From contig WRBD01000008.1 of the NCBI GenBank assembly GCA_009779835.1, positions 1 to 64,000 of the forward strand: 64,000 nt of DNA. Direction: 5' to 3'. This DNA comes from Defluviitaleaceae bacterium. Its GTDB lineage: Bacteria > Bacillota > Clostridia > Lachnospirales > WQUN01. Below, one piece after another: positions 3,789 to 31,531 of this stretch (position 1 is the stretch's first letter; each line of letters begins with the position of its first letter). The notes beneath the pieces were generated by a model. It did not search any database and was not told where the DNA came from. It saw only the letters and a list, made by a program, of their open reading frames with translations. A program made the translations under genes and the position numbers.

Positions 3789-3833
3789 CTTCATGTTATT
3801 ATTAATAAAAATCAGACGTGAAGGGAGTTTTTT

Positions 3834-8639: not shown

Positions 8640-10865
8640 TTGCGCTCAATTAGAAAAGTTGTTTTCTTAATTTTATCACTACTCTTTATTGTATTAATGG
8701 TGTCCTATGCGGGAGCAAGCACTCCGGGAAGGTTTGACCTTGACGTAATAATTGTAATTGATAATAGCGGTTCAATGCGTCAAGCTGACCCGGATATGCT
8801 CGCACTAACAGCAGCCAACTTATTCATTGACATGAATGCGGGTTCGGATTCACGCATTGGATATGTTATGTACACGCAGGCAATTGTAGGACGACGTGAC
8901 CTAACCGAGTTGGTCAGTTTCAGAAGAGATATTAAAAATGAAATTTCCGCCACACGCTGGGATCCGAGAGGATGGACAGATATAGCATTAGGGATTGAAA
9001 CCGCGCTTGAGATGTTTGCCAATGAAAGCGACAGGTCGCGTATGCCCATGATAATTCTTTTAAGCGACGGTAATACAGAGCTTGAAGTTCCCGCACATAT
9101 TAATCCGCGCCCGATACGCACCACAGCCGAATCGAATGCGGCACTTGAAGTTGCAATAACAGATGCTGCCAACATGGGTATTCCTATTTACACCATCGGT
9201 TTTAACTTCGATGGTGAGCTTGATATGCCCACGATGGATAGAATAGCTGCCACAACAGGCGGAATAATGCGCGAAACTAATGTTGCAAGCAATCTTCCTG
9301 CTATTATGGGCGAAATATACAGCCATATAACCGGAGCGAGAAGTTCATCCCATCGGATTATCGGAACAGGTTATCCACAGTCTGTAGTCATATCAGTTGA
9401 AAATAATAGCATACATAGTGCGATGGTTACGATAATTTCCGGCAGACCCATAAGAGACATTTCTTTTACCGACCCGCGTGGCGCAGAATATGATGGTTAC
9501 GATGTAAACACAGATGCCAGCGGAGTATACACTTTGCTCACACTTACAAACCCAAGCATGGGTGATTGGACTCTGACCTTTACCGGTTCGTCAGGAGATA
9601 TTATTTTTATTGACTTATTGAGTATCTATGATATGGAGTTTGTGTTTGATCTTCCGCGAACAACACCGAGACCGATGGGAGCGGATTATAGTGAGGCAGA
9701 ATTTTCGTGGCGACTTGAAGACGAAAGTGGCGCAACCGTTACAGATACAGATTTGATTAATAAGCTTGAACCAAGGCTGTTTTTAAGGAGTGCCGACACG
9801 GACACAGAACAAACAATAAATCTAAACCCCGGTGAAACATCTCGCGTTATGCATCTTATTCCGGGTGATTATTCTGCATATATGACTCTAGATAGTGGCG
9901 GAATTATAAGAACATCTCACACGCATACATTCACCGTACCGGAACCGCCGCCGGAACCGGGAATTGCCCCTATAAGCTTTATTCCCGGACAGCTGGGACG
10001 GGACGATACTTACAATGTCTCGATGATGACAATATTTAGCGCCTCAGCCACGATAGATTTACACGATTTTATCCATGTTCCGGTTCATAACTCAATTATT
10101 TCCATAACCGCCGGCAGAGGTGATTGGTTTGATTATATTGAGTGGAATTATGATTCGTTCCGCGAGCGAATAGATTTATCCGCTATCAACGCGGGAAGCA
10201 CTGAAATAAGAGTTACCGTAACCGATGATTTAGACCCCGAAACTAATTTACATTTCACAATCGACATAAATATTTCATCCGGATGGCTTCCCATTATAAT
10301 AGCGGCTGCGATTTTGCTTTTAATTATCATAATCATAATTGCTGCTATTCAAGCAAAAAAACCTAAAATTAACGACCCAATGAGCAAGCTTTATATAAAA
10401 ATGTCGTTACCGTCAAATTTGGATACGGAAGTGCCGCCCGAATATGCACTTGCACTTCCCGCAATAAAAGGCAAAAAATCATTACGCGAAATTATTAACA
10501 TGAATATGAGTATTTCTGAGCCGTACCGTGCCGCGTTTGCACCGATAAGCTGGTTTGCCGACAGAGCGGTTATTTCGGCGAAATCAAAAAGCCTTCTTGA
10601 AATAAAAATTCCGTCAAATGCGGGCTGCACCGTTAAAGTTGATAAACAAACAGGGAAAAATTCCGTGGTATTCGGACGTGATGGAGGTGCGGAAATTCGC
10701 ATAGGTTCCACAAGCAGCGGGTACGATGAATACGACGAATTTGTAATTGAGTTTGGAAGTCCTAATAAAGGCGGCAACAACGCCTCGATGGATTTTTCCG
10801 ATGGATTTAATATACGCAATTCACAGTCAACCGTAAAAATTGATGATGATAATTTTTGGAACTAG
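8640..10865 (+). CDS. secreted/membrane-anchored VWA-domain protein (cluster gene 1)
   Basis: RBS ggaggg at 8627-8632 then TTG start at 8640 (the ORF track starts upstream at 8490); signal peptide MRSIRKVVFLILSLLFIVLMVSYAGAS; MIDAS DVIIVIDNSGSMRQ; C-terminal TM WLPIIIAAAILLLIIIIIIAAIQAKK and cytoplasmic tail. Confidence 0.9.
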   Translation: MRSIRKVVFLILSLLFIVLMVSYAGASTPGRFDLDVIIVIDNSGSMRQADPDMLALTAANLFIDMNAGSDSRIGYVMYTQAIVGRRDLTELVSFRRDIKNEISATRWDPRGWTDIALGIETALEMFANESDRSRMPMIILLSDGNTELEVPAHINPRPIRTTAESNAALEVAITDAANMGIPIYTIGFNFDGELDMPTMDRIAATTGGIMRETNVASNLPAIMGEIYSHITGARSSSHRIIGTGYPQSVVISVENNSIHSAMVTIISGRPIRDISFTDPRGAEYDGYDVNTDASGVYTLLTLTNPSMGDWTLTFTGSSGDIIFIDLLSIYDMEFVFDLPRTTPRPMGADYSEAEFSWRLEDESGATVTDTDLINKLEPRLFLRSADTDTEQTINLNPGETSRVMHLIPGDYSAYMTLDSGGIIRTSHTHTFTVPEPPPEPGIAPISFIPGQLGRDDTYNVSMMTIFSASATIDLHDFIHVPVHNSIISITAGRGDWFDYIEWNYDSFRERIDLSAINAGSTEIRVTVTDDLDPETNLHFTIDINISSGWLPIIIAAAILLLIIIIIIAAIQAKKPKINDPMSKLYIKMSLPSNLDTEVPPEYALALPAIKGKKSLREIINMNMSISEPYRAAFAPISWFADRAVISAKSKSLLEIKIPSNAGCTVKVDKQTGKNSVVFGRDGGAEIRIGSTSSGYDEYDEFVIEFGSPNKGGNNASMDFSDGFNIRNSQSTVKIDDDNFWN

Positions 10866-10877
10866 GAGGGTTCTTTT

Positions 10878-13800
10878 ATGGCACTTGGGAAAATGCAGAG
10901 GGAACATCTTGAATCGGAACTTCTACTAAGTAAAGGCGGAGGTATTTATTACGATAACGCCCGCGTAGAAGCAAGCGAAACAGAAGCGACACTGTTCGTT
11001 GGGCTTGGAGGAACAGGTGCGGATATGCTGATTCGCATAAAAAATGAGGTTAAGCGACGCATGGTTTTACCTTCCACAAACGGAAAAATCGTTTCCGATA
11101 CGCCGCAAAATATAGGATTCCTCGCGATTGACACAGATAAAACATCTATGAAAAAAGCATGGGGTACGGCGACTTTCGACCAATTTGGTTCGGAGTTTTG
11201 TTCAATTGCGGTCCATGATAAGCAAGCTATCGTTACAAAATGGAAATCGCTTGCGGAATCCAATGCCGAAGAAGCATCTTGGTACGATAAAATTGATGCG
11301 GAAGCCGCATTGCCCGGCGCAGGCGGCAAACGTCAAATAGGACGGCTTTTACTTTTTGAAAATATAAGAAACGTAACCGACTGCATGGAAAGAAAGATTA
11401 GATGTTTAATCGCCGGCGGCATTAATAATGTAACAGTTGTAGTTGTTGCAGGTATCGCCGGCGGAACAGGCTCGGGTACGTATATTGATATCGCCTATAT
11501 CGCGCGAAAAGTTCTTGAGGAGCTTGCGATTCCCGGAAGAAATATTTTCGGTTATATAGTCTTGCCGGACGTAAACTTATTAAACGGCGGTAATCAAGAT
11601 GTTTTAAAACGCAACGGATTCGCCGCGTTAAAAGAACTCGACTATTGGATGAGTCCCGGTAAATATGAACATGATGATCAATTTGTTCAGAGTTACGGTG
11701 CAGGTGTGAGCGTTCGTTCTATCGCGAGCCGCCCATTTAATTTTTGTCACTTACTTTCCGCGCAAGACATGAACGGAATGCCTCTTACTTATAACAAAGT
11801 TATCAGTAGTATGGCGGAAAATATTTTTGCATATATTGCGGCGGAAGTTGGAGCTACTGCCGATAGTAGCGGCAACAGCACAATGGGTGCTATGTATGAC
11901 AATATTAACGAGTATATAGACAGTCTTTCGGCTAAAGCACCGATTCCCGCGTGTTATCGGTACCTTGCGGTTGGAAGCACAAAATTGGAAATTCCTTATG
12001 AAGAAATTTCTACGTTGCTTGCAATTGAATTATTTAAACGTCTTCAACCTACATTTGATTTGCGTCCGACAGAAGAAACTTTTAAGACGGATATGACAGC
12101 TTTACGGCTTGTTCCCAAAGACGTTGTACACAACAGCCTTACAAGAAAAGTTCCCCCGTCACCCCTTGATGGGCAGCCAAATTATCAGCACGGACAAATT
12201 TGGGGTGGCGAAAACGTCGGGCCAAGAAACAACCGCGCTTATGGGGATGTTTATCAGTGGATTGCACGCGAATTTCAAATTGCGGTAACTGAAAGTATCA
12301 AGAATTGGTCTAACGACCAAATAGGGGTTTTTCAAAATTTTATCTCGGACAGCATGAAAAAGCCCGACCGTGGGCCAGTGTATCTTTCCGCATTGATAAA
12401 ATCCGATAACAAGTGGAGTATAATCCCAACCCTAACAAGCATGGCGGAGCAATGCGACGGCATTGCCGCAACTTGTATGTCGCAAGTTGGGCAAATTGAA
12501 AATAAACTTCAATCCGCTTACAACGCGGGTCATGGAAAACTTATAAACAGAGGAAAATACGTCAGTGATTATTTGTCGGCGTTATTTGAGTGGATGAATA
12601 ATGAAAACGCAATATATGTTTATCCAGAACGCGCAAAAGAAATTCGCGCACTTCGCGACAGACTTCAAGTTTATTATGATAAAGTTTTTTCAAAGCTTGC
12701 CGATGTTCTTGAAGCATTGCCTGATATTTTCCGTCAAAATTATGATTACATGGTAATTGCTGAACGCGAAGCGGAAAGCGAAGGCCGGATTGAAAACGAC
12801 ACAAGACTTATTTGGCCGCTTAAATATGTGAAAAAGAAAGCCACGGAGTTACGTGATTTTGACAAAATGCTTGATGAGGGAGTTATTCGTTTCCTTGACG
12901 ACATGACTGTTAATCTTTCACGTTGGACGGGAAACGACCTTGAAAATTTAGACGAAGCTTCATCTGGCACGGACGTTCCGGGATTCATTTCTCATTTTAT
13001 CAGCGAGCAGTTCGGCGGTCTTCTTACAATTAACATGGAAGATATTATGCGAAGCAAAGAAGGCGCGGATGATTTGGACAGATACCTTCATCTAACCTTA
13101 CCAGGCATGAAAGATAAAGCGGTGCCGATGTTTAGTATGAGGCAACAATTCAGAAATAACGGCATAGCTGAATTCGGGCTTACTTCCGTTCCGCAGGATT
13201 GCCTTGAAATTAAATCCGCCGCAAATAAATATGTAAAATCTGACAAAATGTTTATTAAAACAAGTAAAGAAAAGACGCGTCTTTATTTTGTTAAAGTTGT
13301 TTCCGGTGTTCCATTGTATGCATACTCTAAAATTGAGGACATGGAAAAAGAATACGAAACTGCGAAAAGAACTACAACCACCCGCGATGGCACACATCTT
13401 TACGGCAAATGGTGGGAGCGCGACGTTATGCCTTCTCCGTTGCCGGAAAAAGCTTGGACACCTACGGTTTACACAAACCCGGATGCGAAAGCATATAATG
13501 ACTCCATTAGCGAAGCATTTAATTTCTGCTTAAAAAATAGTATTATCCGCCCTGATAACGAAAACAGCCCATCGAGATATTACTTATACATAGCAGATCC
13601 GAAAAAAGCGGATTTGTCAAATTTAGATTTTGGCGAAATGTCGATTCAAGAAAAACTTAGTGTGTTAGAAGAAGAATTTAACAGTTTATGGAGCGGAAAT
13701 TCGATTGAACTTGTAGGCATGGGAACAAGCAGCACTGCTGACTTCTTGGAAACCATACGTCTAAGCGTTTTACGCTTACCGCGCATTTGCAATGAACTTA

Positions 13801-14282
13801 AACGCCAGCGCGAAATAGCTTCAAGTTTTGTGCAAATGAAGAAAGAACTTGGCGACCCGAATGTATTCGCATCAGCTTTAATTTGCGGGCTTGTTACAAA
13901 ACAAGATTTAAATATCGTATTAAAGCGTTCCATAGGCTCGGCAAGTTATGAAGCACTTTACGACATAACTCTCGAAAAACCTTTTGGTGAACACGAAGCA
14001 TATACCGCTTTCCGTAAACTCTTGGACGATGAACGGCGCGATGAAATTGAAATGATGCGAAAAGAAATGCTAAAACGCATATCAAGAGACGACACAGAAA
14101 AATCCGAAGTTACGGAACGCGTTGAAACCATCGTAAAAACGTACACAAATGGTCTTCAAGAAATTAAAGGTCGCATAGAACGCGCACCGGCAGATAGACG
14201 CAAACCCTTGAAGGATATTTATTCATTTTACGATTCTGTTTTAAAAGTTGCGGAAAGATATAAAAATAACTATTTGGTTTAA
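10878..14282 (+). CDS. tubulin/FtsZ-superfamily-like GTPase, large (cluster gene 2)
   Basis: ATLFVGLGGTGADMLIRIKNEV (FtsZ-like N-terminal nucleotide loop), FLAIDTDKTSM, NVTVVVVAGIAGGTGSGTYIDIAYIARKVLEE (tubulin signature); long C-terminal extension. Confidence 0.85.
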   Translation: MALGKMQREHLESELLLSKGGGIYYDNARVEASETEATLFVGLGGTGADMLIRIKNEVKRRMVLPSTNGKIVSDTPQNIGFLAIDTDKTSMKKAWGTATFDQFGSEFCSIAVHDKQAIVTKWKSLAESNAEEASWYDKIDAEAALPGAGGKRQIGRLLLFENIRNVTDCMERKIRCLIAGGINNVTVVVVAGIAGGTGSGTYIDIAYIARKVLEELAIPGRNIFGYIVLPDVNLLNGGNQDVLKRNGFAALKELDYWMSPGKYEHDDQFVQSYGAGVSVRSIASRPFNFCHLLSAQDMNGMPLTYNKVISSMAENIFAYIAAEVGATADSSGNSTMGAMYDNINEYIDSLSAKAPIPACYRYLAVGSTKLEIPYEEISTLLAIELFKRLQPTFDLRPTEETFKTDMTALRLVPKDVVHNSLTRKVPPSPLDGQPNYQHGQIWGGENVGPRNNRAYGDVYQWIAREFQIAVTESIKNWSNDQIGVFQNFISDSMKKPDRGPVYLSALIKSDNKWSIIPTLTSMAEQCDGIAATCMSQVGQIENKLQSAYNAGHGKLINRGKYVSDYLSALFEWMNNENAIYVYPERAKEIRALRDRLQVYYDKVFSKLADVLEALPDIFRQNYDYMVIAEREAESEGRIENDTRLIWPLKYVKKKATELRDFDKMLDEGVIRFLDDMTVNLSRWTGNDLENLDEASSGTDVPGFISHFISEQFGGLLTINMEDIMRSKEGADDLDRYLHLTLPGMKDKAVPMFSMRQQFRNNGIAEFGLTSVPQDCLEIKSAANKYVKSDKMFIKTSKEKTRLYFVKVVSGVPLYAYSKIEDMEKEYETAKRTTTTRDGTHLYGKWWERDVMPSPLPEKAWTPTVYTNPDAKAYNDSISEAFNFCLKNSIIRPDNENSPSRYYLYIADPKKADLSNLDFGEMSIQEKLSVLEEEFNSLWSGNSIELVGMGTSSTADFLETIRLSVLRLPRICNELKRQREIASSFVQMKKELGDPNVFASALICGLVTKQDLNIVLKRSIGSASYEALYDITLEKPFGEHEAYTAFRKLLDDERRDEIEMMRKEMLKRISRDDTEKSEVTERVETIVKTYTNGLQEIKGRIERAPADRRKPLKDIYSFYDSVLKVAERYKNNYLV

Positions 14283-14329
14283 AAAGTCAATCACAATACA
14301 GCAACATCCGAAAGGGGTTTCTGTGCGTT

Positions 14330-16390
14330 ATGAAAGTGCAAGCCGATGATATTATTAAAAAAATATCGGAGATTCGTTCGTTTACCGATGACAGTTACTT
14401 GAAAACAACGCATTACGCCATCTTTCTTTTGTTTGGTTGCTTGGACGAAATGAAAGTAACATTGGAGCAACGTGCGAGAGAGATTATAGTTGACAAAAAA
14501 GCCATTTCATTTTTAACAGTGGAAAATGCAGCCGGTGTTGCGCAAGATGTTAAATCGGCCATTGATGAAGTTTCGCGAAGCGGCGTTGATTTGCAAAACC
14601 TTACGGAACTTCATTTTTGCCCGATTATTGTTTCGGATATGGCTGCCCCTGCACTTTATGGCGAGGTTGTTGATGTACTTGAAACGTATAAGCAAAATAA
14701 TGATTTACTTACCATTTGGAAGCCGTTTATCATTCTTAATACGGAAGAACACTCTACAATCGAGTGGTTGAATGTAATTTCACTTAAAATGAAAGAGCTT
14801 TCAGATAATGGTGCGGCGAATTGTTGTCGTTGTTGCATAATGACGCGAAAGGATGAAGATTTTTTTGCTGTAACTGACGAGCGACTTTTAAATACGGTTT
14901 TATTTGTGTCACTTCTTCACGCAAATGACACTACGCGTGAAGGAATTGGGCGGTGTATTGCTTATCGCAGAGAATATCCCGAAGAGTTTTATTATACTGC
15001 GCAAACAGTTTTTATTTCTAATCCGGTCATAATGCGCACGTTGCACTGCATCCGAATGCTTCTTGACCGCATAGATGAAGAAGGTGGCACAGAGCAAGAA
15101 CTGGATTTAACATTTACGGGGGAAATACTGGAACCGCTTTACGCAAGACTGCCGAATGAAGGGGAGCAAGTTACATTTGTCCCTCTATTAGGTGTTATGC
15201 CGGAACCTAACGGAAGCATGGACGGGTTTATGTCGCGGCTTAAAGAATTTGCAAAAACACATTATCTTTCCCAATTTGACATCAATAAAGCAGATATTTT
15301 TCTACGTTTCCGCAAGGGGTTTTTGCGCTCGTTTATTGAGTCGGGCATGAATGTGGAATTTTTGCACGGGATAATAGGTAATGATAATGAAATTAAAAAA
15401 TTATCAAGAACAACAGTTGCTGTTCAAATGAGTTCCTTGCCGGCGTTTACGCGAAAAAGTGGAATTTCCTCTGAAAATTTAGATTTGTATGCAATTATCG
15501 AAAGCAAATTGCGCTCGAAGCTTAACAGCTTAGGTTCCGAGTTGGTTGAGGAATTTCTGCGAAGCGAAGAATTTATTTCGCTTCCCGCGCTTTATAACGA
15601 TGCGCGAAAATTACTTAGAGACGTTTCAAACGAACTTGTCGAAGAAGTTGACAGACGAAACAGAAGCGGTGTTGAAATTTACTTAGACTTACTGGGCGAG
15701 CCGGATGAACAACTTGTCTTCAACGTGGCGAAAGAGCTTAGCTCGCAGTCAATTTTTTCTCAATTTATCTCCGACATCACGCTTGCTATGGAAAGAAGCG
15801 ACGAAGATGGCGTCAATGAAGCTTTGGGGGATTTATTGGAGTCCCTTTACAACTCCGTAAGGGGGCTTTCCGGCGGAAGCGGCGCAAGAGATTATATGAA
15901 CTTACTTTCGCGTACATGCCAAAATCCTTCTGATAATGTTGTAAAACACTGTATTCAAAAAATAAGTTCGCAGTTGAAATTTCCGATGCGTTTTAATAAT
16001 AAAACCGGGCGCAAAAAATGCACTTTTATGTGGGGAAGCCAAGATAATAATTTCTATAGCGCATGGGAGCGGCAACAAACTATTTCAAACACAGATAATG
16101 AATTTTTACCAATACCCTCGAAAGAACGATTTGTAATTCTTTCAGTTTCACCTGCGTTTACAATGAAAGATATACGCGGCATCACAGGTGCTGCGCAAAC
16201 ACAACAGGAACCGGAAGAGCCGCAAATTTATGAAATACCGCCTGAATCAATTCCGAAACCGGCGGAAGAACCGGAATTGCCCCGGAAACCGATAGAAAAA
16301 TCAGCTCCGCCGCCTGAACCTGATGAATGGTCAATACCTGACTCTCAACCAACGCAACCTCTTGAAGACATAGAAAACCCGTGGGAGTAA
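14330..16390 (+). CDS. unknown-function protein with Pro/Glu-rich C-terminal tail (cluster gene 3)
   Basis: Long ORF in operon register; no recognised family; tail PEEPQIYEIPPESIPKPAEEPELPRKPIEKSAPPPEPDEW. Confidence 0.85.
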   Translation: MKVQADDIIKKISEIRSFTDDSYLKTTHYAIFLLFGCLDEMKVTLEQRAREIIVDKKAISFLTVENAAGVAQDVKSAIDEVSRSGVDLQNLTELHFCPIIVSDMAAPALYGEVVDVLETYKQNNDLLTIWKPFIILNTEEHSTIEWLNVISLKMKELSDNGAANCCRCCIMTRKDEDFFAVTDERLLNTVLFVSLLHANDTTREGIGRCIAYRREYPEEFYYTAQTVFISNPVIMRTLHCIRMLLDRIDEEGGTEQELDLTFTGEILEPLYARLPNEGEQVTFVPLLGVMPEPNGSMDGFMSRLKEFAKTHYLSQFDINKADIFLRFRKGFLRSFIESGMNVEFLHGIIGNDNEIKKLSRTTVAVQMSSLPAFTRKSGISSENLDLYAIIESKLRSKLNSLGSELVEEFLRSEEFISLPALYNDARKLLRDVSNELVEEVDRRNRSGVEIYLDLLGEPDEQLVFNVAKELSSQSIFSQFISDITLAMERSDEDGVNEALGDLLESLYNSVRGLSGGSGARDYMNLLSRTCQNPSDNVVKHCIQKISSQLKFPMRFNNKTGRKKCTFMWGSQDNNFYSAWERQQTISNTDNEFLPIPSKERFVILSVSPAFTMKDIRGITGAAQTQQEPEEPQIYEIPPESIPKPAEEPELPRKPIEKSAPPPEPDEWSIPDSQPTQPLEDIENPWE

Positions 16391-16418
16391 TATTATTCAG
16401 AAACGGAGGTGTTTCCAC

Positions 16419-17042
16419 ATGCAACCGATAGCGTTGTTAAATCTTTCGGGTAAATATGTAAACGGAGAAGTTTCCCTTTCATGGAAATACCCGCCGCAAT
16501 CGCCCGACACTGTTTATGTGTTACCTGTTTGCGGAACGGGAGCTACCCGCCGTGCAAATACAACAGAAATGTCGGAGCATATGTTGCGAGATGTTACAAG
16601 CGGAACGAAGTTTAAATATCAATTCCGAAGCCCGCATGGTGTAATGCGTTGCGAATTTCTTGTTTTTCTTGGGAATAGCGGCGACGATATTCCTAATATG
16701 GAAAGGCTTTTGGATAACCCGGCACTTACCGTTACTGTTACCGTGGGAAATGCAATTGTTTTTTACGATGTGAAAACAACAAAAGTGGAAAACGATTTTG
16801 TGAAACATATAATCACTTTAAAATCATCATGCAGTATGGAGCAGGGAATATTAGGATATTCGTTTGCATCGTGCGAGAGAAGGTTTTCCGCACCTTTTCC
16901 GGGAGCGATTGAACGAGGGAAACGAAAGTACCCTCCGTTTTACACACGTGTAGGTTCAGATGTTTTTGTTGAAGTTGTAAACGGGACAAACGCTGATGTT
17001 CAAACAATTGCAAAACCAATATCCACATTTCTGTTCGGATAA
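16419..17042 (+). CDS. small predicted beta-rich protein, unknown function (cluster gene 4)
   Basis: RBS cggaggtg; FN3-like start LLNLSGKYVNGEVSLSWKYPPQSPDTVYVLPV; no recognised family. Confidence 0.8.
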   Translation: MQPIALLNLSGKYVNGEVSLSWKYPPQSPDTVYVLPVCGTGATRRANTTEMSEHMLRDVTSGTKFKYQFRSPHGVMRCEFLVFLGNSGDDIPNMERLLDNPALTVTVTVGNAIVFYDVKTTKVENDFVKHIITLKSSCSMEQGILGYSFASCERRFSAPFPGAIERGKRKYPPFYTRVGSDVFVEVVNGTNADVQTIAKPISTFLFG

Positions 17043-17062
17043 AATTTACAGGAGGCTTTTTA

Positions 17063-18802
17063 ATGTCATATTACCCAATTAAATGCCCATATTGCTTGGA
17101 GGAACTCTCAAACGAAGATATCTGTTTTAATATGAAAACAGGAATCGAAGGTAAGCGGCGCGAAATAAGAGAAGATTCTCCCATGCAAAACTCGGGTTCT
17201 TTCAATGGTTTGCCGGAATCAAGCAAACGGACAGCTTCTGTAGATGGCACACCCCTTCCGGATATCAGTTGGCTGGAGGATGATAGCAACAGTGATGCGG
17301 GTTGGCTGGATAGCTCTGATAGTAAAAAAAGCTCTGCCAATCGACAAATTAACGCGCCGACGGAAGGTTTTTATACTTTGTCCGAATTAAAAAAACATTT
17401 CGGTGAAGAAAATGTGAAGCCGCTTTTAGACAGGGATGTTCATGCACCGCCTGCACTTGCAAACAAGCCGGAATATAGAGCAGATTTACTTGTCGGCGTT
17501 GAAATTACAACTCGTAAAGATGGATATGAAACCACCACTACTTACAGGAAGCGTTATTGTGAGTGTGAAAAAGAACTTATGAACGCCGCCGGAATGAAAG
17601 CAAGCTATGTAATTTTGATGCTTGGGCCAAGTAGTTCAGGTAAAACAATGTTTTTAATTGCGTTGCACAAAGCATTGAAAGTTGACGGCGGGTATCTTTT
17701 ACCGCCACCTGAAGACGAAAATTCTCGAGGGGGTATTGCAAAACTTCTTGTCACTGTTTTGTCTGGCGGAGGAGAAGGAGATACGTCACTTAATAAAATG
17801 TCGGATGATTTATTCGATGACGGAAAATTGCCGTTGTCAACATTTTCGTTGGAAAATGAACCGCTTGTGCTGGACGTTTCTGTAGATTTTAAAAATGGGA
17901 AAAGTAATAACGCGCTTTTATTTCTTCGCGATATGCCGGGTGAATGGTTAACGAAACCGGACAAAGCAGAAGAACTTGAAACTATTGCAAAGCAGTTTTC
18001 ATTATTTGATGCATTCATAATGATGCTGGATCCGTTTACATTCACAAGCCGCAATGTTTTCAGAAGCGAAGGTAATAATGAAAATATGGATAAAATAAAA
18101 TTAAAATATATAGACATCCTCAATGGAGTTTTGACAGGTCAAGTTGTGCCCTATGTGGGCGGAAAAAAAATAAACAAACCAACAGCCGTAGTAATAACAA
18201 AGGGCGACCATTTTTTCAATCAGCAGAATTATCAACGATTGGAGCAAAATGGTGTTGCGCGCTCGTTCCCAACGCTTACCTCTTGGCAGAAAGCCAGTTT
18301 TGATAAACTTTATTTTTCCGAAATAGATAATGATGTCGGGCGCATTTTAAACAGCCTTTCAATCAATATAATAAATATGCTTGAAAAAAATTTCGGAAAT
18401 ACATTTTACGCTTTGGTTTCTGCGTTAAGCAAACTTCCAATTGACATCGAATATAATAAAGAAGGCTCTCTTGGGCGGGGCGATTACGTTTCTAACCCCA
18501 ATGTTATAAAGCCGTGGCGTGTCGCAGACCCGTTTATTCGTATGCTTATGCGACTTAATATTGTGCCGCCGTTTGACAAAGTTGAAATTCGCACGATTGA
18601 TATGGAACCACACGATTTAAGGCTTGGACGAAACACAAAATATCTCGCGGAAGTTAATGATTGGGGCAGGACATACTGTAATGCATGGGACGACCTTGCG
18701 GGTGAAATTTTGCCGACAAAAGGCGGACAAACGAGGCAGACGGGATCGGGGCAACCACAAAAACCGCCAAGAAAAGGAATCTTCGGAGGGTGGAAAAAAT
18801 GA
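17063..18802 (+). CDS. zinc-ribbon TRAFAC-like GTPase (cluster gene 5)
   Basis: N-term IKCPYCLEEL; Walker A LGPSSSGKTMF; G3-like LFLRDMPGEW; G4-like VVITKGDHF. Confidence 0.82.
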   Translation: MSYYPIKCPYCLEELSNEDICFNMKTGIEGKRREIREDSPMQNSGSFNGLPESSKRTASVDGTPLPDISWLEDDSNSDAGWLDSSDSKKSSANRQINAPTEGFYTLSELKKHFGEENVKPLLDRDVHAPPALANKPEYRADLLVGVEITTRKDGYETTTTYRKRYCECEKELMNAAGMKASYVILMLGPSSSGKTMFLIALHKALKVDGGYLLPPPEDENSRGGIAKLLVTVLSGGGEGDTSLNKMSDDLFDDGKLPLSTFSLENEPLVLDVSVDFKNGKSNNALLFLRDMPGEWLTKPDKAEELETIAKQFSLFDAFIMMLDPFTFTSRNVFRSEGNNENMDKIKLKYIDILNGVLTGQVVPYVGGKKINKPTAVVITKGDHFFNQQNYQRLEQNGVARSFPTLTSWQKASFDKLYFSEIDNDVGRILNSLSINIINMLEKNFGNTFYALVSALSKLPIDIEYNKEGSLGRGDYVSNPNVIKPWRVADPFIRMLMRLNIVPPFDKVEIRTIDMEPHDLRLGRNTKYLAEVNDWGRTYCNAWDDLAGEILPTKGGQTRQTGSGQPQKPPRKGIFGGWKK

Positions 18803-21729: not shown

Positions 21730-21745
21730 AGGAGCGAAGAGTCTT

Positions 21746-22711: not shown

Positions 22712-22729
22712 TAATTTGGGGAGGGCTAC

Positions 22730-24085
22730 ATGGTTATAAAATCACCGTTAAATTTTTTAATGCTACTTTTTAGTTTTTTTGCGGCAATTGCCGTTTTCTT
22801 TTTGGGCGAGGTTTTACTTAGATTTATCTCGGGCTTGCCGTTTATTTTTCAATGCGCGATTTATTTGACCTTTGTAACAACTCTTTGCTTTGCTGCAATT
22901 TTTATTTCGGAAAAAATTTATTCGGGTTATTACATTCCGCGCGGACGTGTTACTTTTGGCGGAACTTGCGCAAAAGCGGCGGCAATTTTTATCCCTTGCG
23001 CGTTCGCTCTCGGGCTTCTTACGCAGTTACTTTACGGTTTTATTTTTACGGAAACCCGTGGCGACCATACAGTCGTAGATGGAGAAGTTTCCGGCGCAAT
23101 GATACAAATGATTGGCGAAATGGAAATAGGACGCCGCGACGCGCTGGATTTGGTCATTGTGGTAGATACCACCGGTTCTATGGGTTCGTATATTAACGAT
23201 GTCAGAAGGGATATTAGTCATGTGTATGACGCACTTGCAAACCAAACCCGCGATTTCCGTGTGGCACTTATAGATTACAGGGATTTTCCCTCACGCACCA
23301 TGTATGCGGGCGACTATCCCGCCAAGCTTCAGCTTAATTTTACATCGGAACGGCATGAAATTGCCAATGCCATAAACGCGCTCACATTGGGTAACGGAGG
23401 GGATATACCGGAAACCATGTATTCCGCGCTAAGCATGGCGGCGGGACTTGATTGGCGACCGGATGCGCATAAACACATCATTGTGCTTACAGACGCGGAA
23501 CCGCTTGACCCCGAACCCTATACATACTACACCATGAACCAAATAATTGATATGTTGGAATACGGGGACATTGAGCTGCACCTTATAGGTGCGGGCGATA
23601 GTCCGGTTATGCTTGCCTTTTTTGAAGAAATATCTGAACGTACGGGGAATGATTTTGCTCATGTTGTACCGGTAATTACGTTTGCAAGTTTTATAGTAGA
23701 ACAAGAAATTGAAACTTGGTGGGAAAGACCTCATTTACTTTTGGCGTTTGACGGCTCAGGGGAAAGGGGAGGTGCTATGAAAATTGCCGTACACGCCTTA
23801 TTAATGTCACTTTGGGGAATATTCACAGGCATTGCTGTAGTTGTATTCTTAAATAACAGCAAATTGTTTACCACGTTTTTGATACACCGGATTATTGTTT
23901 CGATAGTTATATCAACTATATTTGCAATAATGATGGCAGATGCAGACATAATTACGAATTTGGCGGCGCGCGCATTATTAGCATTAGGAGTTTGCCTATT
24001 ATATCTGCCGACATTCAGTTGGGGCGATACTATTGCACCTCAAAATAGGAATCCTACTGCGCCCTCGGCAGATTCGGGATGGTAA
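22730..24085 (+). CDS. multi-TM membrane protein with VWA domain (cluster gene 8)
   Basis: N-terminal TM segments, DLVIVVDTTGSMGSYINDVRRDI (VWA), C-terminal TM segments. Confidence 0.9.
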   Translation: MVIKSPLNFLMLLFSFFAAIAVFFLGEVLLRFISGLPFIFQCAIYLTFVTTLCFAAIFISEKIYSGYYIPRGRVTFGGTCAKAAAIFIPCAFALGLLTQLLYGFIFTETRGDHTVVDGEVSGAMIQMIGEMEIGRRDALDLVIVVDTTGSMGSYINDVRRDISHVYDALANQTRDFRVALIDYRDFPSRTMYAGDYPAKLQLNFTSERHEIANAINALTLGNGGDIPETMYSALSMAAGLDWRPDAHKHIIVLTDAEPLDPEPYTYYTMNQIIDMLEYGDIELHLIGAGDSPVMLAFFEEISERTGNDFAHVVPVITFASFIVEQEIETWWERPHLLLAFDGSGERGGAMKIAVHALLMSLWGIFTGIAVVVFLNNSKLFTTFLIHRIIVSIVISTIFAIMMADADIITNLAARALLALGVCLLYLPTFSWGDTIAPQNRNPTAPSADSGW

Positions 24086-24092
24086 CCGGTCA

Positions 24093-24815
24093 ATGTTTTT
24101 TGCTGCTAAAAAATTTTCGGTAACTTTTGCCGCCGCGTCGAGAATCGGAAAACGTGAGCGCAATGAAGATTCTGTTATCTCGCTTGTAAAAGACGACAGA
24201 TATTGTTTTGTTGTCGCCGACGGACTGGGCGGGCATGGGCTTGGCGATTTAGCGTCAAAGACACTTACGTATGTTTTTTCGCGTGAATTTGACAGATGCA
24301 CAAATATGAAAAGTAACCGGATATTTCTTTCGCACGCATTCGATTGTGCGCAGGAAGAAATTCTTGCTTTACAAGCCGCGAGGGGTATAAAAAAATATCA
24401 AGCTAAAACAACGGCGGTTGCTCTTTCAATTTTTAATGGGAAATACGCGTGGGGACATGTTGGAGATTCCCGCTTATATCGCTTTAATCGCGATATCTTA
24501 ATCTCCCGCACGTTTGACCATAGTGTGCCGCAAATTCTTGCCCTTTCCAATGAAATTTCCGAAGACGAAATTTCCACGCACCCCGACCGTTCACTTTTGC
24601 TTCACGCATTCGGCGATGAATGGGACGAACCGAAATACGAAATTTCAAAAGAAACATCGCTCAAACGCGGCAACTCATTTTTTTTATGTACGGACGGTGT
24701 TTGGGAATATGCAAAAATAAAACCTCCGCATAACATGGAAATAACCCCTGATGTTTGGCTTTCCGTCATTATGAGTGAAACACGAAACCGCAGGACAGGA
24801 AAGCGATTTAGATAA
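24093..24815 (+). CDS. PP2C-family Ser/Thr phosphatase, C-terminus apparently frameshifted (cluster gene 9)
   Basis: KRERNEDSVISL, CFVVADGLGGHGLGDLAS, WGHVGDSRLYRF; canonical tail DLDNYSAIAITVK present in the +1 frame up to a stop at 24846. Confidence 0.9.
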   Translation: MFFAAKKFSVTFAAASRIGKRERNEDSVISLVKDDRYCFVVADGLGGHGLGDLASKTLTYVFSREFDRCTNMKSNRIFLSHAFDCAQEEILALQAARGIKKYQAKTTAVALSIFNGKYAWGHVGDSRLYRFNRDILISRTFDHSVPQILALSNEISEDEISTHPDRSLLLHAFGDEWDEPKYEISKETSLKRGNSFFLCTDGVWEYAKIKPPHNMEITPDVWLSVIMSETRNRRTGKRFR

Positions 24816-24860
24816 TTATTCCGCCATTGCAATTACCGTAAAATAGGGAGTTGATATTTA

Positions 24861-26843
24861 ATGAGATGTAATTATTGTTTTTCTTATCACGACGAAGGGG
24901 ATACTTGTCCCGATTGCGGTTATGTGAAAGACCGGGAGGCGGACGAACTTTTTTATTTATACCCCGGCACAGAATTAAATAACCGTTACATAATCGGGCG
25001 GACACTTGGCGCAGGAGGGTTTGGCATTGTTTATAAGGCGTGGGATAAAAAGGAAGATATCCCTGTAGCGATAAAAGAATATTATCCAAGCGGGCTTGTA
25101 ACACGCACACCCGGAATGGGGCAGCTAAACCTTATAGCAAAAAACCGTTCTTATGAATTTGAAGCCGGCTCACAACGCTTTGCGGCGGAATGTGCCGGAA
25201 CAATGCAAATAGACAGGCAATATAAAAACAACCCTGCATTAATCCATAATGTTTCGTGTTTTAATTATAACGGCACAACTTACCTTGTAATGGAATTATT
25301 GGAAGGTGAAACACTCACTCAATACGTTAAAAAAAACGGTGTTATCCCATTGGATGATGCTTTAAAGATTGCTTCCGCAATTCTTGGCGCGGTGCGCGAT
25401 ATACATAATGTGAATATTATTCATCGTGATATCAGCCCCGACAATATTATTATTTGCAAAGACGGCACGGTAAAACTAATCGACTTTGGTGCGGCGAAAT
25501 TCGGAAAACGCGACAACGCACAAAATACAGAGCGCGTTATGAAGCCGGGCTATTCTCCGCCGGAGCAATACGAACAAGTCGAACGCTCGGGCAATTTTAC
25601 AGATATCTATGCTGTTGGAGCAACTTTTTACTTTATGCTTACCAGTTATGAACCCACCGAATCCACCAACAGAAAAACAGGCGACTCGCTCGCGTCCCCC
25701 CGAAGCCTAAATCCACAAATTCCCCAAAACATCAGCGACGCAATTTTAAAATCAATGGCAATAGACCACAGATTGCGCTTTAAAGACGCAACAGAATTTA
25801 TGAAAGCACTTACCGGCGAAATAAAAGTTTCGCGTCCGGAAGTTGAACTTAAACGCCGCAAAACAAAACGCTTTTTTTCGATTGCAGCTTCATTTTTAAT
25901 ATTGTGTATTGCCGGATTTACTTCATATTATTATATAGACAGTATTGTCGGTGCGTTAAATGACGCTTCTATCGAAGTATGGTTTATTTTAACAGGTGAT
26001 GAGTTCATTGATTCGCAAAGAACCGCCGCGCTTACACAGGTAGTTGAAGATTTTAATTATCTACATTCAAACATAGAAATAGAGCTTCGCGGAATCCCGA
26101 TTGACAGTTATGAGTCGGAAATTGAAAGCGCGTTGCTGGAAAACATGCCCATACTTTTTGAATCGGGCGGGCTTAGTATGGAATTGTTATCGCAAACGGC
26201 GGATTTAAACGCCTCCGTAAACAGAGTGCGAAACAATGTTCACTTTTTGGAACACTACACACGTTTTTTCCCGGCGCGAAATCAAATGCCAACCGGCTTT
26301 AAAGTTTCTTGCATTTTTATTAACACAACAATTTCAACTTATGACAGGCCTTACGCCGATGATTTAACCACGCTTCTTGCTTCAATGCCCGTTGATACAA
26401 GCCGCGTTGCCGTGCGACACGGAAGTGAAGCAGACTTTATTACCGTTTTCGGCAGCGTAACATATGTTGATTCTTTGGAATTTTTCCTTAATGATGCCGG
26501 TGCGCTTTTTGCCGATACTTCAATACATCACATTATGCAGACGGAATTTGCCGGAAGATACAGAATGATTAGGCTCGGTACAAATACCGTGCCCGCTTCG
26601 TTCGGAGGAATATTCAGCGTAGCGGAAAGTAGTCGCGATGAACAAGCCGCAAAAATCCGCTTGCTTGAATTTATGCTTGGAAACCATGCGCAGCGCGTGA
26701 TTCACGTTCAGCATCGCAGCGGTTTTATGCCGCTTAATATTAACGCACTTGGCACAGATGAAGCAGAACCTCGTACCTTCCGCCGTATTTTCGGAGAATT
26801 TTCAGAGTTGCTTGAAAATATGGAAAGCTTTGCGTTTAACTAA
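24861..26843 (+). CDS. Ser/Thr protein kinase: N-terminal zinc ribbon, kinase, TM, extracellular solute-binding-like domain (cluster gene 10)
   Basis: CNYCFSYHDEGDTCPDCGY; GAGGFGIVYKAWDKKEDIPVAIKEYYP; HRDISPDNIII; LIDFGAAKF; TM; EVWFILTGDEFIDSQRTAALTQVVEDFNYLHSNIEIELRGI... resembling a type-1 solute-binding fold. Confidence 0.9.
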   Translation: MRCNYCFSYHDEGDTCPDCGYVKDREADELFYLYPGTELNNRYIIGRTLGAGGFGIVYKAWDKKEDIPVAIKEYYPSGLVTRTPGMGQLNLIAKNRSYEFEAGSQRFAAECAGTMQIDRQYKNNPALIHNVSCFNYNGTTYLVMELLEGETLTQYVKKNGVIPLDDALKIASAILGAVRDIHNVNIIHRDISPDNIIICKDGTVKLIDFGAAKFGKRDNAQNTERVMKPGYSPPEQYEQVERSGNFTDIYAVGATFYFMLTSYEPTESTNRKTGDSLASPRSLNPQIPQNISDAILKSMAIDHRLRFKDATEFMKALTGEIKVSRPEVELKRRKTKRFFSIAASFLILCIAGFTSYYYIDSIVGALNDASIEVWFILTGDEFIDSQRTAALTQVVEDFNYLHSNIEIELRGIPIDSYESEIESALLENMPILFESGGLSMELLSQTADLNASVNRVRNNVHFLEHYTRFFPARNQMPTGFKVSCIFINTTISTYDRPYADDLTTLLASMPVDTSRVAVRHGSEADFITVFGSVTYVDSLEFFLNDAGALFADTSIHHIMQTEFAGRYRMIRLGTNTVPASFGGIFSVAESSRDEQAAKIRLLEFMLGNHAQRVIHVQHRSGFMPLNINALGTDEAEPRTFRRIFGEFSELLENMESFAFN

Positions 26844-26867
26844 TTCGTCGATATGGAGGCATGACAT

Positions 26868-29800
26868 ATGGAATTGACTGATTCCCTATCACCGGTGGCG
26901 GATTCGCCGCATTTGGCAAGCAGTTCTGCTTTGCGTGATAATTATGTAATAGAAAAACTTATCGGATACGGCGGTTTCGGCGCGACTTACATAGGTTGGG
27001 ACAAAGCGGGTGACAGACAAGTTGCGATAAGAGAATATTTTCCCGCGGAATTTTCAACGCGTGTTCCGGGGCGTTCGGAAATTTCTATTTTCAACGATTC
27101 AAAAAAACAAAAACAATTTCACGACGGGCTTGTAAAATTTCTTGAAGAAGCAAAACAAATTTCAAAACTTCAAGGTGAAGACGGCATTATTAATATATAC
27201 GACTCCTTTGAGGCAAACAACACGGCTTATATTATTATGGAGTACCTTGACGGAAATTTACTTTCCGAGATTCAAGGCGGCGATAATAAGCACAACAGAT
27301 ACAATGCTACTGTAGCAATTGATTTTGTAATGCCTATTATAAAATCGCTTAAAACTTTACACGATGCCGGTATATATCACTTAGATATCGCGCCGAATAA
27401 TATTTTTATGACAAGCAAAGGCAAAACTAAACTTATCGACTTTTCGGCGTACCGCCATGTAACAACATCGTACACCCGCAGTTTATCCGTTATTGTAAAG
27501 CCGGGGTTTTCGCCGGAAGAACTTTACCGCAGCAGCGGCGACCTTGGTGCGCACACAGATGTTTACGCAATAGGCGCGGTTTTATATCGTTTACTTACGG
27601 GGGTAGTTCCGCCCGATGCAATGTCGCGCAGAATGAATCTTGAAAACGGTAGAAAAGACCCGCTCAAATCTATTAGAAATTTCAATTCAAAAGTTTCTAA
27701 AAGCCAAGAAAACGCAATTATGAACGCGCTGAATGTTCAAATAAAAGACCGCACACCGGATGTTTCAACCTTTGCAGACGAGCTAACATCCGACAACGCA
27801 AAACGGCGCGGGCAAAAGGTAGGATTTCTTGATATCGGAAAATGGTCGGGTAAGGCGAAAGCTATTGTCGGAACAGGCGCGGCGGCGATTATAACTGTTG
27901 TCGTACTTATTTTAATCGGAGTTTTCGCTCCACCGGAATTTGAAATACCGGAAGGTATGGTTGCTGTCCCCAATGTTGTAAATGAATCGCGAGCTTCGGC
28001 GGAAGCGTTACTTGAAGCTGAAAATCTTTTGCCTTTTATTGTCGGCAGGGAGTTTTCGCAAATTATACCCCCGGGCTTTGTTTTATTGCAGGATGTATCA
28101 GCGGGAACCTTTGTTCCTGTTCTTACAAGAGTTTCGCTGACAATCAGTTATGGGGCTGAAATGGTTCTTCTTCCTTTTGTAGTTGGTTTTTCGGCGGACG
28201 AAGCACAGGAGGAATTGGAATCCGTTGGCTTCAGCGTAAGACGAATATACGAATATAGCCGCTTTATTGTAGAAGGTGCTGTTATAAGGACAAACTTTGA
28301 TGATGCCAACTCTGCCGTACTTGGCGCAACCGTAAGGCTTTATATTTCAAGAGGCCCCGACCCGGAATCTGACGAACCGTATTTATCTGACGTTCCGAAT
28401 ATCGAGGGCTTGACGCTTGAAGATGCTATAAGGATTTCAAATGAAGCGGGTTTTGCTGTGGAAGTAATTCACCGCCGCTACGGAACAGAACCAAGATACG
28501 AAGTTATCTCCCAGTCTTTGAATGCCGGTACCCGCACAATGACTGATAACATAATGGGGCTTGTTATTTCTTTGGGTGAAAGAGTGGCTCTTTTACCCGA
28601 CTTGCAGGCAAGAACATTGGAAGACGCGCAAAGGGTTCTTAATAACGCGGGCTTTAACACTAATGTTACAACGGCGCACAGCGAAACAGTAGCAAGAGGG
28701 CTTATAATTTCTCAAAGCCCGGCACCGGGTACATTACTATACGGTACTGCTGTTTCAATAGTGGTTTCTGCGGGAGGATTACCGTTTGCCGCGCCAAATG
28801 TTACCGGATTATCGGAAGACGTCGCCAGAAGTGCGCTTAATACAGAGGGCTTGATGGTTTCAATCAGCTATGAACCCGGAAATCCGGAAGGCAATGTTAT
28901 CAGACAGTCGCCAGATTCCGGCTCTCAGGTTGTCAGAGGCGATACGATATATCTTGTTGTCACCAATAATCGTCCCGTTAATGTTCCGAATGTTGAAGGA
29001 ATGACACGTGAAGCCGCGGAAAACGCGTTAAGAAACGCAGGTTTAAGGTCAAGCGCTTTTGAAAATTTCCATGAAACAGTTGCCGTAGGGCATGTAATTT
29101 CATTCTCGCCAAGCGGAACGCAGCCGGAAACCACAATTATTAACCTTATGATAAGCGCGGGGCGTGAACCGGTTCCTGTTCCCACGGGATTAACGGGAAT
29201 GGAAAAAGTTGAGGCAGAACGCCGAATTTTTGCCGCTAACTTACGCTCCGTTGTAACAGAGGAACATCACGATACCATTGCGGCAGGAATTGTTATATCC
29301 CAAAACCCCGCGTCCGGTATGCTTTTCCGGAACGACCCCGTAAGTATTGTTATTTCGCTGGGTGCGGAAGAAGTATCCGTACCGAACGTCGTAGGGCAAA
29401 CACAATCCGCCGCGCAAAATACGCTTCAAGCGCAACGCTTCCATATGGAAGTTGTTGACGAGCAGTTCAGTAACGCAACACCTCCTGTCCCTGCGGGCAA
29501 CGTAATGCTGCAAACCCCAAACGCGGGGCAGATTCTAACAAGAGGCGGAACCGTAAGAGTTACTTTAAGTCTTGGACCGGTTCCAAATCACCGAATCACC
29601 TATGACCGAAACGATGGCACGGGTACAATGCAGCCGGTTTATGTAAGAAACGGATTACACCATTTCGCAAGCCAAAATCAATTCACCCGCGCAAATTTTG
29701 TATTTGAAAGCTGGAATACCCAAGCTAACGGACAAGGCACAAGATATGACGCGGGTCAAAGAATAAACAATATAGAAGCGCCTATAACTCTTTACGCGCA

Positions 29801-31439
29801 ATGGGAACGTGATTTCATAGTAACTTATCACTCGAATGACGGAACAGGCAACGCACCGACAGTTCCGCCGATTAAACCGGGGCAAAGTCACATTGTTATT
29901 CATAATCCTTTCAACCGCGCCAATTACACATTCACAAACTGGAATACGCAAGCAAACGGCAACGGGACTTCTTATTCGCCCGGTGACCCTATCTTAAATA
30001 TTCGCGCGGATATTAATTTATTTGCGCAGTGGGTTCCCGCCACTGTTCCTGTAATAAATATCAACATGTATTACTCGCCTCAAAATCCCGTTGCGGGAAC
30101 GCCGATTGTACTTTCGGGTGTGGTTTCTCCTTCAAATGCCACTCACCAAACCATTGTTTGGAGTGTTTTCAACCAGGGAACCACAGGCGCGACAATCAAT
30201 GGAAATACTTTAAATACCACAGCCGCCGGAACCGTTACCGTGCAAGCGACAATTGTAAACGGTATTTCTGTTGTACCGCCGCAAAATTATACGAAAGATT
30301 TCTCAATTGATATAACAGTTGCTTCTGTTGCTCCGATAATAACAAGCGGCAACAGTACGTCTATACAACACGGCGTTGGCGGAATTTTTAATGTGATTGC
30401 GACGGGTGTGCCGCAACAAATTACTTTCTCGCTGTCCAACGCACCCTCGGGCGTTACTATTGACGGCAACAGCGGCGTTATGACCATTGCGGCGGCGACG
30501 GCGGGCGGTACGCATAGTTTTTTGATAACCGCAAGCAATGCGGCGGGTAATTCAACGCCGCAAAATTTTACTCTTATAATTACTATGAACCCGCCGACAA
30601 TCACAAGTGCAAACAATACGTCTGTGCAACACGGCGCAGGCGGCACATTTAATGTAACCGCTACAGGTACAACGCCAATCACATTCTCATTATCCGGCGA
30701 ACCCTCGGGCATTTCAATCAACAACTCGGGTGCTATTAACATCTCGACAGCGGTTGCGGCAGGGACGCATAATTTTACAATCACGGCAAGTAATGATGCA
30801 GGCAATGTACAACAATCCTTCTCGCTTACCGTCACGGGGTCGGCACCCGCATTTACAAGCGCCAACAGCACAAGTGTTCCTTATGGCACAGGCGGAGCAT
30901 TCTCTGTAACAGCCGGCGGTACAATGCCAATTATTTTCGCGCTGTCCGGCGCACCCGCAGGTGTTGCAATTGATAATAACGGTAATTTGAGCATCGCGGC
31001 ATCAGTTCCACCGGGTAGTCACTCCTTTACAATAACAGCCACAAATGCCGTGGGTAACACACAGCAAGGCTTTACACTTACGGTTCAGCCCCCGGCACAC
31101 GTTCCAGCAATAGGTGTCACGCTGACAATTACACCTCCAACCGATTATGGTCTGCCGTTCCCGCACATTCCTCCGGCCTCGGGTGGCACGCAAATTCTTA
31201 GAAGCGTACAGTATACCTTGTCAGGAGTGGTAGCTCCTGAAAACGCCACAAATACCGCCATAACATGGAGTATTCAAAACGCGGGAACAACCGGCGCGAC
31301 AATCACCGGTGTAAACGGGAATATTATTAACACCACCGGAACAGGTGCAGTTACCGTAAGAGCAACCATAGTAGGCGGCGGCGCAACGGCAACAGCAAAC
31401 TTTACGCAAGATTTCGTGTTTGCCGTGGTTGATGAATAG
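26868..31439 (+). CDS. kinase-like (predicted pseudokinase) membrane protein with 8 PASTA domains, 2 InlB/Listeria-Bacteroides repeats and Ig-like repeats (cluster gene 11)
   Basis: GYGGFGATYIGWDKAGDRQVAIREYFP; HLDIAPNNIF; LIDFSAYR; TM; PASTA copies VPNV.G.....A...L...; YDRNDGTGTMQPVY...LYAQW; repeated PxITSxNxTSVxxGxGGxFxVTA units. Confidence 0.93.
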   Translation: MELTDSLSPVADSPHLASSSALRDNYVIEKLIGYGGFGATYIGWDKAGDRQVAIREYFPAEFSTRVPGRSEISIFNDSKKQKQFHDGLVKFLEEAKQISKLQGEDGIINIYDSFEANNTAYIIMEYLDGNLLSEIQGGDNKHNRYNATVAIDFVMPIIKSLKTLHDAGIYHLDIAPNNIFMTSKGKTKLIDFSAYRHVTTSYTRSLSVIVKPGFSPEELYRSSGDLGAHTDVYAIGAVLYRLLTGVVPPDAMSRRMNLENGRKDPLKSIRNFNSKVSKSQENAIMNALNVQIKDRTPDVSTFADELTSDNAKRRGQKVGFLDIGKWSGKAKAIVGTGAAAIITVVVLILIGVFAPPEFEIPEGMVAVPNVVNESRASAEALLEAENLLPFIVGREFSQIIPPGFVLLQDVSAGTFVPVLTRVSLTISYGAEMVLLPFVVGFSADEAQEELESVGFSVRRIYEYSRFIVEGAVIRTNFDDANSAVLGATVRLYISRGPDPESDEPYLSDVPNIEGLTLEDAIRISNEAGFAVEVIHRRYGTEPRYEVISQSLNAGTRTMTDNIMGLVISLGERVALLPDLQARTLEDAQRVLNNAGFNTNVTTAHSETVARGLIISQSPAPGTLLYGTAVSIVVSAGGLPFAAPNVTGLSEDVARSALNTEGLMVSISYEPGNPEGNVIRQSPDSGSQVVRGDTIYLVVTNNRPVNVPNVEGMTREAAENALRNAGLRSSAFENFHETVAVGHVISFSPSGTQPETTIINLMISAGREPVPVPTGLTGMEKVEAERRIFAANLRSVVTEEHHDTIAAGIVISQNPASGMLFRNDPVSIVISLGAEEVSVPNVVGQTQSAAQNTLQAQRFHMEVVDEQFSNATPPVPAGNVMLQTPNAGQILTRGGTVRVTLSLGPVPNHRITYDRNDGTGTMQPVYVRNGLHHFASQNQFTRANFVFESWNTQANGQGTRYDAGQRINNIEAPITLYAQWERDFIVTYHSNDGTGNAPTVPPIKPGQSHIVIHNPFNRANYTFTNWNTQANGNGTSYSPGDPILNIRADINLFAQWVPATVPVININMYYSPQNPVAGTPIVLSGVVSPSNATHQTIVWSVFNQGTTGATINGNTLNTTAAGTVTVQATIVNGISVVPPQNYTKDFSIDITVASVAPIITSGNSTSIQHGVGGIFNVIATGVPQQITFSLSNAPSGVTIDGNSGVMTIAAATAGGTHSFLITASNAAGNSTPQNFTLIITMNPPTITSANNTSVQHGAGGTFNVTATGTTPITFSLSGEPSGISINNSGAINISTAVAAGTHNFTITASNDAGNVQQSFSLTVTGSAPAFTSANSTSVPYGTGGAFSVTAGGTMPIIFALSGAPAGVAIDNNGNLSIAASVPPGSHSFTITATNAVGNTQQGFTLTVQPPAHVPAIGVTLTITPPTDYGLPFPHIPPASGGTQILRSVQYTLSGVVAPENATNTAITWSIQNAGTTGATITGVNGNIINTTGTGAVTVRATIVGGGATATANFTQDFVFAVVDE
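27958..29590 (+). repeat. eight consecutive PASTA-domain coding units
   Basis: Counted by VPN/LPD-type starts and SxG(A/E/P)-type ends in the 1523-aa ORF. Confidence 0.85.
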
Positions 31440-31492: not shown

Positions 31493-31531
31493 AAACTGCC
31501 TGCTCGAAATTATATAGCAGGCAGTTTTTTT
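31493..31531 (+). terminator. Rho-independent terminator closing the 8.6-31.4 kb cluster
   Basis: ACTGCCTGCT / AGCAGGCAGT perfect 10-bp stem + TTTTTT. Confidence 0.88.

Follow-up and report, generated by a model that had tools for sequence, protein, structure and literature searches.

The closest described relatives of the locus analysed here are the GAP1-N2 systems predicted by Kaur and colleagues in 2020, which combine a DO-GTPase with an FNIII protein and, in firmicutes, carry two tubulins and two VWA genes (PMC7159879). A separate GAP1-N2 theme, found only in actinobacteria and accounting for 10% of GAP1-N2 loci, has an active kinase, a PP2C phosphatase, and a VWA protein, and is described as not overlapping the tubulin theme (PMC7159879). 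A VWA protein, a PP2C, and a Ser/Thr kinase also make up the TerY-P triad (PMC11090510). No experimental study of DO-GTPase/GAP1/tubulin systems was found in the open-licence papers searched.

The window is a stretch of 64,000 nucleotides from a gut bacterium of the Defluviitaleaceae (Clostridia), part of a 2.32-Mb assembly of 58 contigs (G000). Judged by sequence, the core of its eleven-gene cluster belongs to the firmicute GAP1-N2/DO-GTPase/tubulin system, as a subtype that is both rare and divergent. This core is not new, because it was predicted by Kaur et al. 2020 (PMC7159879). What is new is its union with a VWA-PP2C-kinase module and a PASTA kinase-like protein, described earlier only as separate themes. 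The initial annotation had linked the cluster to computationally predicted NTP-dependent conflict systems, and the placement of genes 2, 5, and 6 in Tubulin_2, DO-GTPase (TRAFAC), and GAP1-N2 upholds that link. Since these families are confirmed and the neighbourhood is conserved, its reservations that the genes might belong elsewhere or rarely co-occur fall away.

The eleven genes all lie on the plus strand at window positions 8640-31439, as an ORF check established. Distances between consecutive genes, from gene 1 to gene 11, are 12, 47, 28, 20, -13, about 16, 18, 7, 45, and 24 nt, with 47 nt the largest gap and the remainder shorter or overlapping. This is the tight, co-directional arrangement first proposed; gene 7 is present as claimed, although its start is corrected to the ATG at 21746. 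A terminator hairpin at 31493-31531 (+), AACTGCCTGCT..AGCAGGCAGTT followed by a run of T, is visible in the sequence where a strong terminator had been reported. The reported lack of an internal terminator also holds: terminator-like sites between 7600 and 27000 are at chance level (21 found, 21.5 expected in shuffles), and those on the plus strand are all intragenic. Promoter-like matches (63 found against 48 expected, sd 6.9) carry no usable signal.

GC3 of the cluster is 0.32-0.41, slightly under that of most neighbours (0.41-0.48). Just upstream of gene 1, on the minus strand at 8426-8566, is a DDE-transposase-like remnant with a PF01609 match of 14.6 bits, below the cut-off. At about 7723-8077 (+) lies what by eye resembles a broken mscL, with an intact-looking N-terminus and a Cys-rich C-terminus in another frame; its N-terminal part, queried one base out of frame, has no Pfam match. 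The ahcY region of genus relatives was examined for an empty site; the cluster is absent from it in all of them and the 3' neighbour of ahcY varies, so no insertion boundary is drawn. Elsewhere the window encodes a protein that joins a GH11 (xylanase-type) domain to a copper amine oxidase N-terminal domain (34119-35465), a neighbouring pair of large hybrid histidine kinases that contain Hpt domains and of which one has an SBP_bac_3 sensor (41627-48884), and a subtilase of 2759 aa that includes copper amine oxidase N, InlB-type, and dockerin-like regions (55296-63575).

Gene 2 (10878-14282, +) encodes the tubulin-like GTPase that had been proposed. Pfam Tubulin_2 matches it at 1.8e-59, the motif AGGTGSG is at residue 194, and a full-length hhalign alignment to the type-A tubulins of the family gives E 1e-78. 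A 9.8-kb human-gut phage record, MT836542.1, contains at 6922-7929 a weak match to this tubulin (25%, 1e-7). The product of gene 3 (14330-16390, +) is probably a degenerate second tubulin, with no G-box seen, an assignment of moderate confidence drawn from position and modelled fold. The slot after the tubulin is occupied by a gene 3 equivalent in most related clusters, and the assignment is made because the gene at the same position in the canonical cluster of genome G203 weakly matches Tubulin_2 (5.5e-4). The AF2 model has a pLDDT of 68 overall and about 80-90 in the better N-domain; its PDB fold matches are mostly tubulin or CetZ at E 0.02-0.2, none reaching E <= 0.001. Gene 3 has no credible Pfam match, and hhalign of its profile against tubulins and against canonical gene 3 is not significant. 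The gene 3 copy of G021, another carrier and a genome of the same genus, was considered as a broken gene and rejected as such, its stop being near the natural C-terminus.

Gene 4 (16419-17042, +), without a credible Pfam match, is a probable tandem FNIII protein: its AF2 model is all beta (pLDDT 82.6), a cytoplasmic FNIII/Ig-like beta-sandwich arrangement, and Foldseek gives a best E of 3.2e-4, with FNIII/Ig receptor domains prominent among the top matches. Its sequence link to canonical gene 4 is weak (hhalign prob 50, E 1.6e-4). Gene 5 (17063-18802, +) encodes a DO-GTPase, in keeping with the P-loop TRAFAC GTPase first proposed; DO-GTPase2 matches at 1.3e-6 with 28.7 bits, above the cut-off of 27. 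It has an N-terminal CPYC, GPSSSGKT, DMPGE, which includes the conserved Glu after the Walker B Asp, and TKGD. A scan of genome contigs with gene 5 found one relative. Overlapping gene 5 by 13 nt, downstream gene 6 (18790-21729, +) encodes a divergent GAP1-N2 protein with C-terminal TM helices at about 910-978. The window copy has no Pfam match and NCBIfam yields nothing useful. Its ortholog in G118, a genome of another family, is 46% identical over 957 residues and passes the GAP1-N2 cut-off (27.8 against 24 bits). A four-sequence gene 6 profile aligns with 14 canonical GAP1 proteins at hhalign prob 90 and E 1.9e-6, collinear over N2 and M, though a GAP1-M profile search has no match. The GAP1-like label given to gene 6 is thus borne out by the ortholog and the profile alignment together.

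Candidate outward-facing modules are found in genes 1, 7, 8, and 11. Gene 1 (8640-10865, +) encodes, by Pfam and hydropathy, a signal peptide, a VWA domain (5.8e-12, MIDAS DNSGS), a beta-rich ectodomain, one TM helix, and a cytoplasmic tail. It agrees with the signal-peptide VWA protein described initially, shows homology (hhalign prob 100) to the VWA gene found in the type-A cluster of the family, and has no YtkA match in Pfam. Gene 7 (21746-22711, +) encodes a signal peptide, an LRR ectodomain, and a C-terminal TM helix; the LRR module proposed for it is matched by LRR_4 at 7.9e-5, but under the curated cut-off. The TM helix is retained among relatives; the window ectodomain has a related counterpart in G026, a further carrier, but not in G118. 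In gene 11, described with the kinases, the InlB/Ig repeats of the window copy give way to RCC1 repeats in the G026 copy.

Gene 8 (22730-24085, +) encodes a multi-TM chassis with a VWA insert predicted to face outward, the membrane VWA protein of the initial annotation (VWA 2.7e-11, VWA_4 3.6e-12). It aligns with the canonical TM-VWA at hhalign prob 96 and E 4.4e-9. The first membrane block is 65-74% identical in every pair of four genomes and the last is 49-55% identical among three complete copies. The middle insert, in this small sample of four carriers, is unrelated from one to another (z -0.4 to 2.9 against shuffles), the comparison of window and G118 being borderline at z 2.9 and 5/400 shuffles. 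Pfam detects a VWA domain in the window's gene 8 but not in the G118 or G021 copies. It also has no match to the truncated insert of G026, which nevertheless contains a VWA-type DISGS motif and matches the insert of a gene in G034 at z about 30. A further new observation, at the level of sequence, is that the gene 8 membrane chassis is kept while its outward domain is unrelated among the four carriers, with the outward modules of genes 7 and 11 also varying. From this we infer that the outward domains of genes 7, 8, and 11 have been exchanged on retained parts; very fast divergence is still a candidate alternative to replacement for the gene 8 ectodomains.

The last three genes include the phosphorylation module. 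Gene 9 (24093-24815, +) encodes a PP2C phosphatase with intact catalytic motifs (PP2C_2 8e-12), as had been claimed. Gene 10 (24861-26843, +) encodes an N-terminal Cys motif, an active-looking Ser/Thr kinase, a TM helix, and an ectodomain. The kinase call is sound, with Pkinase at 1.4e-35 and VAIK/HRD/DFG intact. The ectodomain, described as solute-binding-like, shows that likeness only weakly and in an ortholog: the window copy has no significant solute-binding match in Pfam or PDB, and the ortholog of a relative has a weak SBP_bac_8 match at 0.0017. Gene 11 (26868-31439, +) encodes a kinase-like domain, a TM helix, and, by Pfam, the 8 PASTA, InlB-type, and Ig repeats expected of it. The description of its kinase as degenerate stands insofar as Pkinase matches and the motifs are compromised (VAIR/HLD/DFS in the window), but the catalytic motifs are not simply absent; they are damaged differently in three orthologs. 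In the G026 ortholog at L184 (G026:C118) 2581-5343, HRF replaces HRD and two PASTA domains accompany the RCC1 repeats.

Compared with the firmicute tubulin theme, the window shares a DO-GTPase with Glu after Walker B, a GAP1-N2 protein, an FNIII protein, a tubulin and a probable second tubulin, and two VWA genes, one of them multi-TM (genes 1 and 8, the outward orientation being predicted), all in near-identical order. It differs by its additional PP2C, active kinase with N-terminal Cys motif, PASTA kinase-like protein, and LRR protein. The GAP1 of the theme has a highly polar C-terminal extension, whereas gene 6 has TM helices instead; the VWA of the theme is fused to YtkA, unlike gene 1; and gene 8 lacks a detected VWA in 2 of the 4 carriers. 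Canonical clusters of the theme occur in G062, G178, G203, and G208, of another family of the order, as VWA, tubulin, gene 3, TM-VWA, gene 4, DO-GTPase, and GAP1, where the first VWA gene of G178 and G208 lies at or beyond the fetched end. None of the four has a kinase or PP2C. The actinobacterial theme does place an active kinase with a zinc-ribbon-like motif, a PP2C, and a VWA protein beside a GAP1-N2/DO-GTPase core, but the locus analysed here is clostridial and combines the kinase and tubulin themes. With the TerY-P triad it shares three adjacent genes of the same kinds; the triad, however, has a TerY-like VWA and a kinase with C-terminal zinc ribbon, and the window has a VWA insert in a multi-TM protein and an N-terminal Cys motif on a membrane kinase. 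Gene 11 resembles PASTA kinases of the PknB/PrkC type in its cytoplasmic kinase fold, single TM helix, and PASTA ectodomain, and departs from them in that its catalytic motifs are compromised and it has additional modules of InlB/Ig or RCC1 type. No known defence system is matched, PADLOC on genes 1-10 returning only general kinase-domain and weak phosphatase matches, and no known defence genes flank the locus.

All eleven genes occur in identical order in G118, which sustains the claim of a single locus. The cytoplasmic parts vary less than the outward domains: identity of G118 to the window is 68% for gene 2, 60% for gene 5, 59% for gene 9, and 62-64% for the kinase domains. Three short contigs of G026 carry genes 2-3, 4-8, and 10-11. 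G021 has genes 1-6, 8, and 9 over three contigs, as g1-g2, g4-g5-g6, and g8-g9-g3, the last together at L183 (G021:C177) 2168-6142. Because both keep most of the genes across separate contigs, the parts are kept as a set despite the apparent split of the operon. A search of G021, whose genome is about 90% complete, yielded no close relative of gene 10, and there genes 7, 10, and 11 may be absent or have been replaced. Directly after gene 2 in G021, at L090 (G021:C107) about 690-4290, small ORFs that by eye resemble pieces of a Uma2-type nuclease are followed by an ATPase and a TPR protein.

Of 295 genomes sampled across the order, 4 carry gene 6; within the genus it is present in 3 of 10. No further carrier emerged when a sample of the class was searched with the gene 6 profile, where one marginal partial match reached E 4e-4, or when a sample of the phylum was searched with gene 5, and no gene 6 relatives were found in viral contigs or plasmids. 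Tubulin_2, on the other hand, is present in 30 of 38 family genomes. In a FastTree phylogeny of the tubulins, midpoint-rooted and read without inspection of support values, two other lineages group by genus, as taxonomy does, whereas the window type sits apart on a long branch that joins members of two families. The rare and patchy distribution of the window type in the order, set against two sister tubulin lineages that follow taxonomy, is also new. The window-type tubulin retains 68% identity between families; the corresponding figures are 61-69% for the sister tubulin when genera within one family are compared, and 67% for transketolase between the same two families. This leans towards horizontal transfer, short of proof. 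The same genome has a second tubulin/DO-GTPase locus at about 36.4-45.6 kb of G000:C2 (L003, L004), with VWA, tubulin, gene 3-like, gene 4-like, and DO-GTPase genes. It is without GAP1 or kinase and is of a type that is common in the family and tracks taxonomy. A separate pair of DO-GTPase and short GAP1 lies at G000:C11 16674-19116 (L103), and this pair and the G000:C2 locus may be one canonical system split in two.

The reading we favour, with a probability of about 0.42, is that the products of the cluster form a single apparatus spanning the membrane: a tubulin/GTPase assembly that is triggered at the surface, gated by phosphorylation, and probably employed against phages or neighbours in conflict. 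The outward modules of genes 7, 8, and 11, along with the gene 1 VWA, would detect a changing surface ligand, whether phage, competitor, or wall product. The gene 10 kinase, held on the wall together with the compromised kinase of gene 11, would then phosphorylate the cytoplasmic core, counterbalanced by the gene 9 PP2C. Phosphorylation would flip the DO-GTPase (gene 5), with coupling through gene 6, the GAP1 anchored in the membrane, and gene 4, the FNIII adaptor. The DO-GTPase would in turn license the gene 2 tubulin to assemble, and the degenerate tubulin of gene 3 would serve as its cap or regulator. The relay would thus run from ectodomain to kinase to GTPase to polymer. Because no nuclease, pore, or toxin domain is recognisable, the most likely output in such a conflict would be an assembly at the membrane that acts mechanically or by containment. 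A tentative and rather doubtful elaboration is a surface-recognition machine with plug-in ectodomains, in which lineages would fit unrelated recognition modules to a fixed chassis and a cytoplasmic GTPase/tubulin/kinase engine and so, as with an exchangeable receptor, link one filament-forming output to extracellular targets that change.

PASTA domains bind wall fragments. The serious main rival to the conflict reading is sensing of envelope stress, in which the PASTA, VWA, and LRR parts would sense peptidoglycan or membrane damage, the GTPase/tubulin core would organise repair or membrane support, and any role in conflict would be incidental. DO-GTPases of some gammaproteobacterial Psp operons have a predicted membrane-stress role (PMC11237479), which fits. 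The sister core lineages are common in the family and track taxonomy, so a housekeeping role also suits the core, and this counts against defence. The conflict reading is further weakened by the lack of any direct phage link in the searches of viral contigs and plasmids, by flanks free of known defence genes, and by PADLOC matches confined to general kinase and phosphatase models. A general sensor, however, should not need unrelated ectodomains in close relatives, nor should it be absent from 7 of 10 genus members, and we consider envelope stress somewhat unlikely as the primary function.

Those same ectodomains could instead mark or read strain identity through genes 7, 8, and 11, in kin or cell-contact recognition. 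On the shared gene 8 chassis, no two of the four carriers have the same ectodomain, and the contrast in gene 11 between InlB/Ig and RCC1 repeats points the same way; yet only four carriers are known, and no paired toxin/immunity or matching ligand gene was seen, which makes this an improbable primary role. Far less credible still is a chance adjacency of two independent modules, tubulin/GTPase/GAP1 and VWA/PP2C/kinase/PASTA. It would suit the four kinase-free canonical clusters, which carry the first module, and the failure to find a close gene 10 relative in G021, but the complete order is conserved in G118, g8-g9-g3 are adjacent in G021, and the TM-VWA gene is itself part of the canonical set. 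A TubZ-like replicon-partitioning locus would account for the tubulin-fold GTPase, but with no partner DNA-binding gene, chromosomal neighbours, and no plasmid match for gene 6, its probability is close to negligible.

Among DO-GTPase/GAP1/tubulin systems, the locus offers the fullest wiring seen here, with a candidate input in the swapped ectodomains, a relay in the kinase and PP2C, a switch in the GTPase and GAP1, and an output in the tubulin, all in one operon-like unit from which a testable model follows. Set beside two lineages that follow taxonomy, the one patchy lineage calls into question the reading of all such systems as defence.
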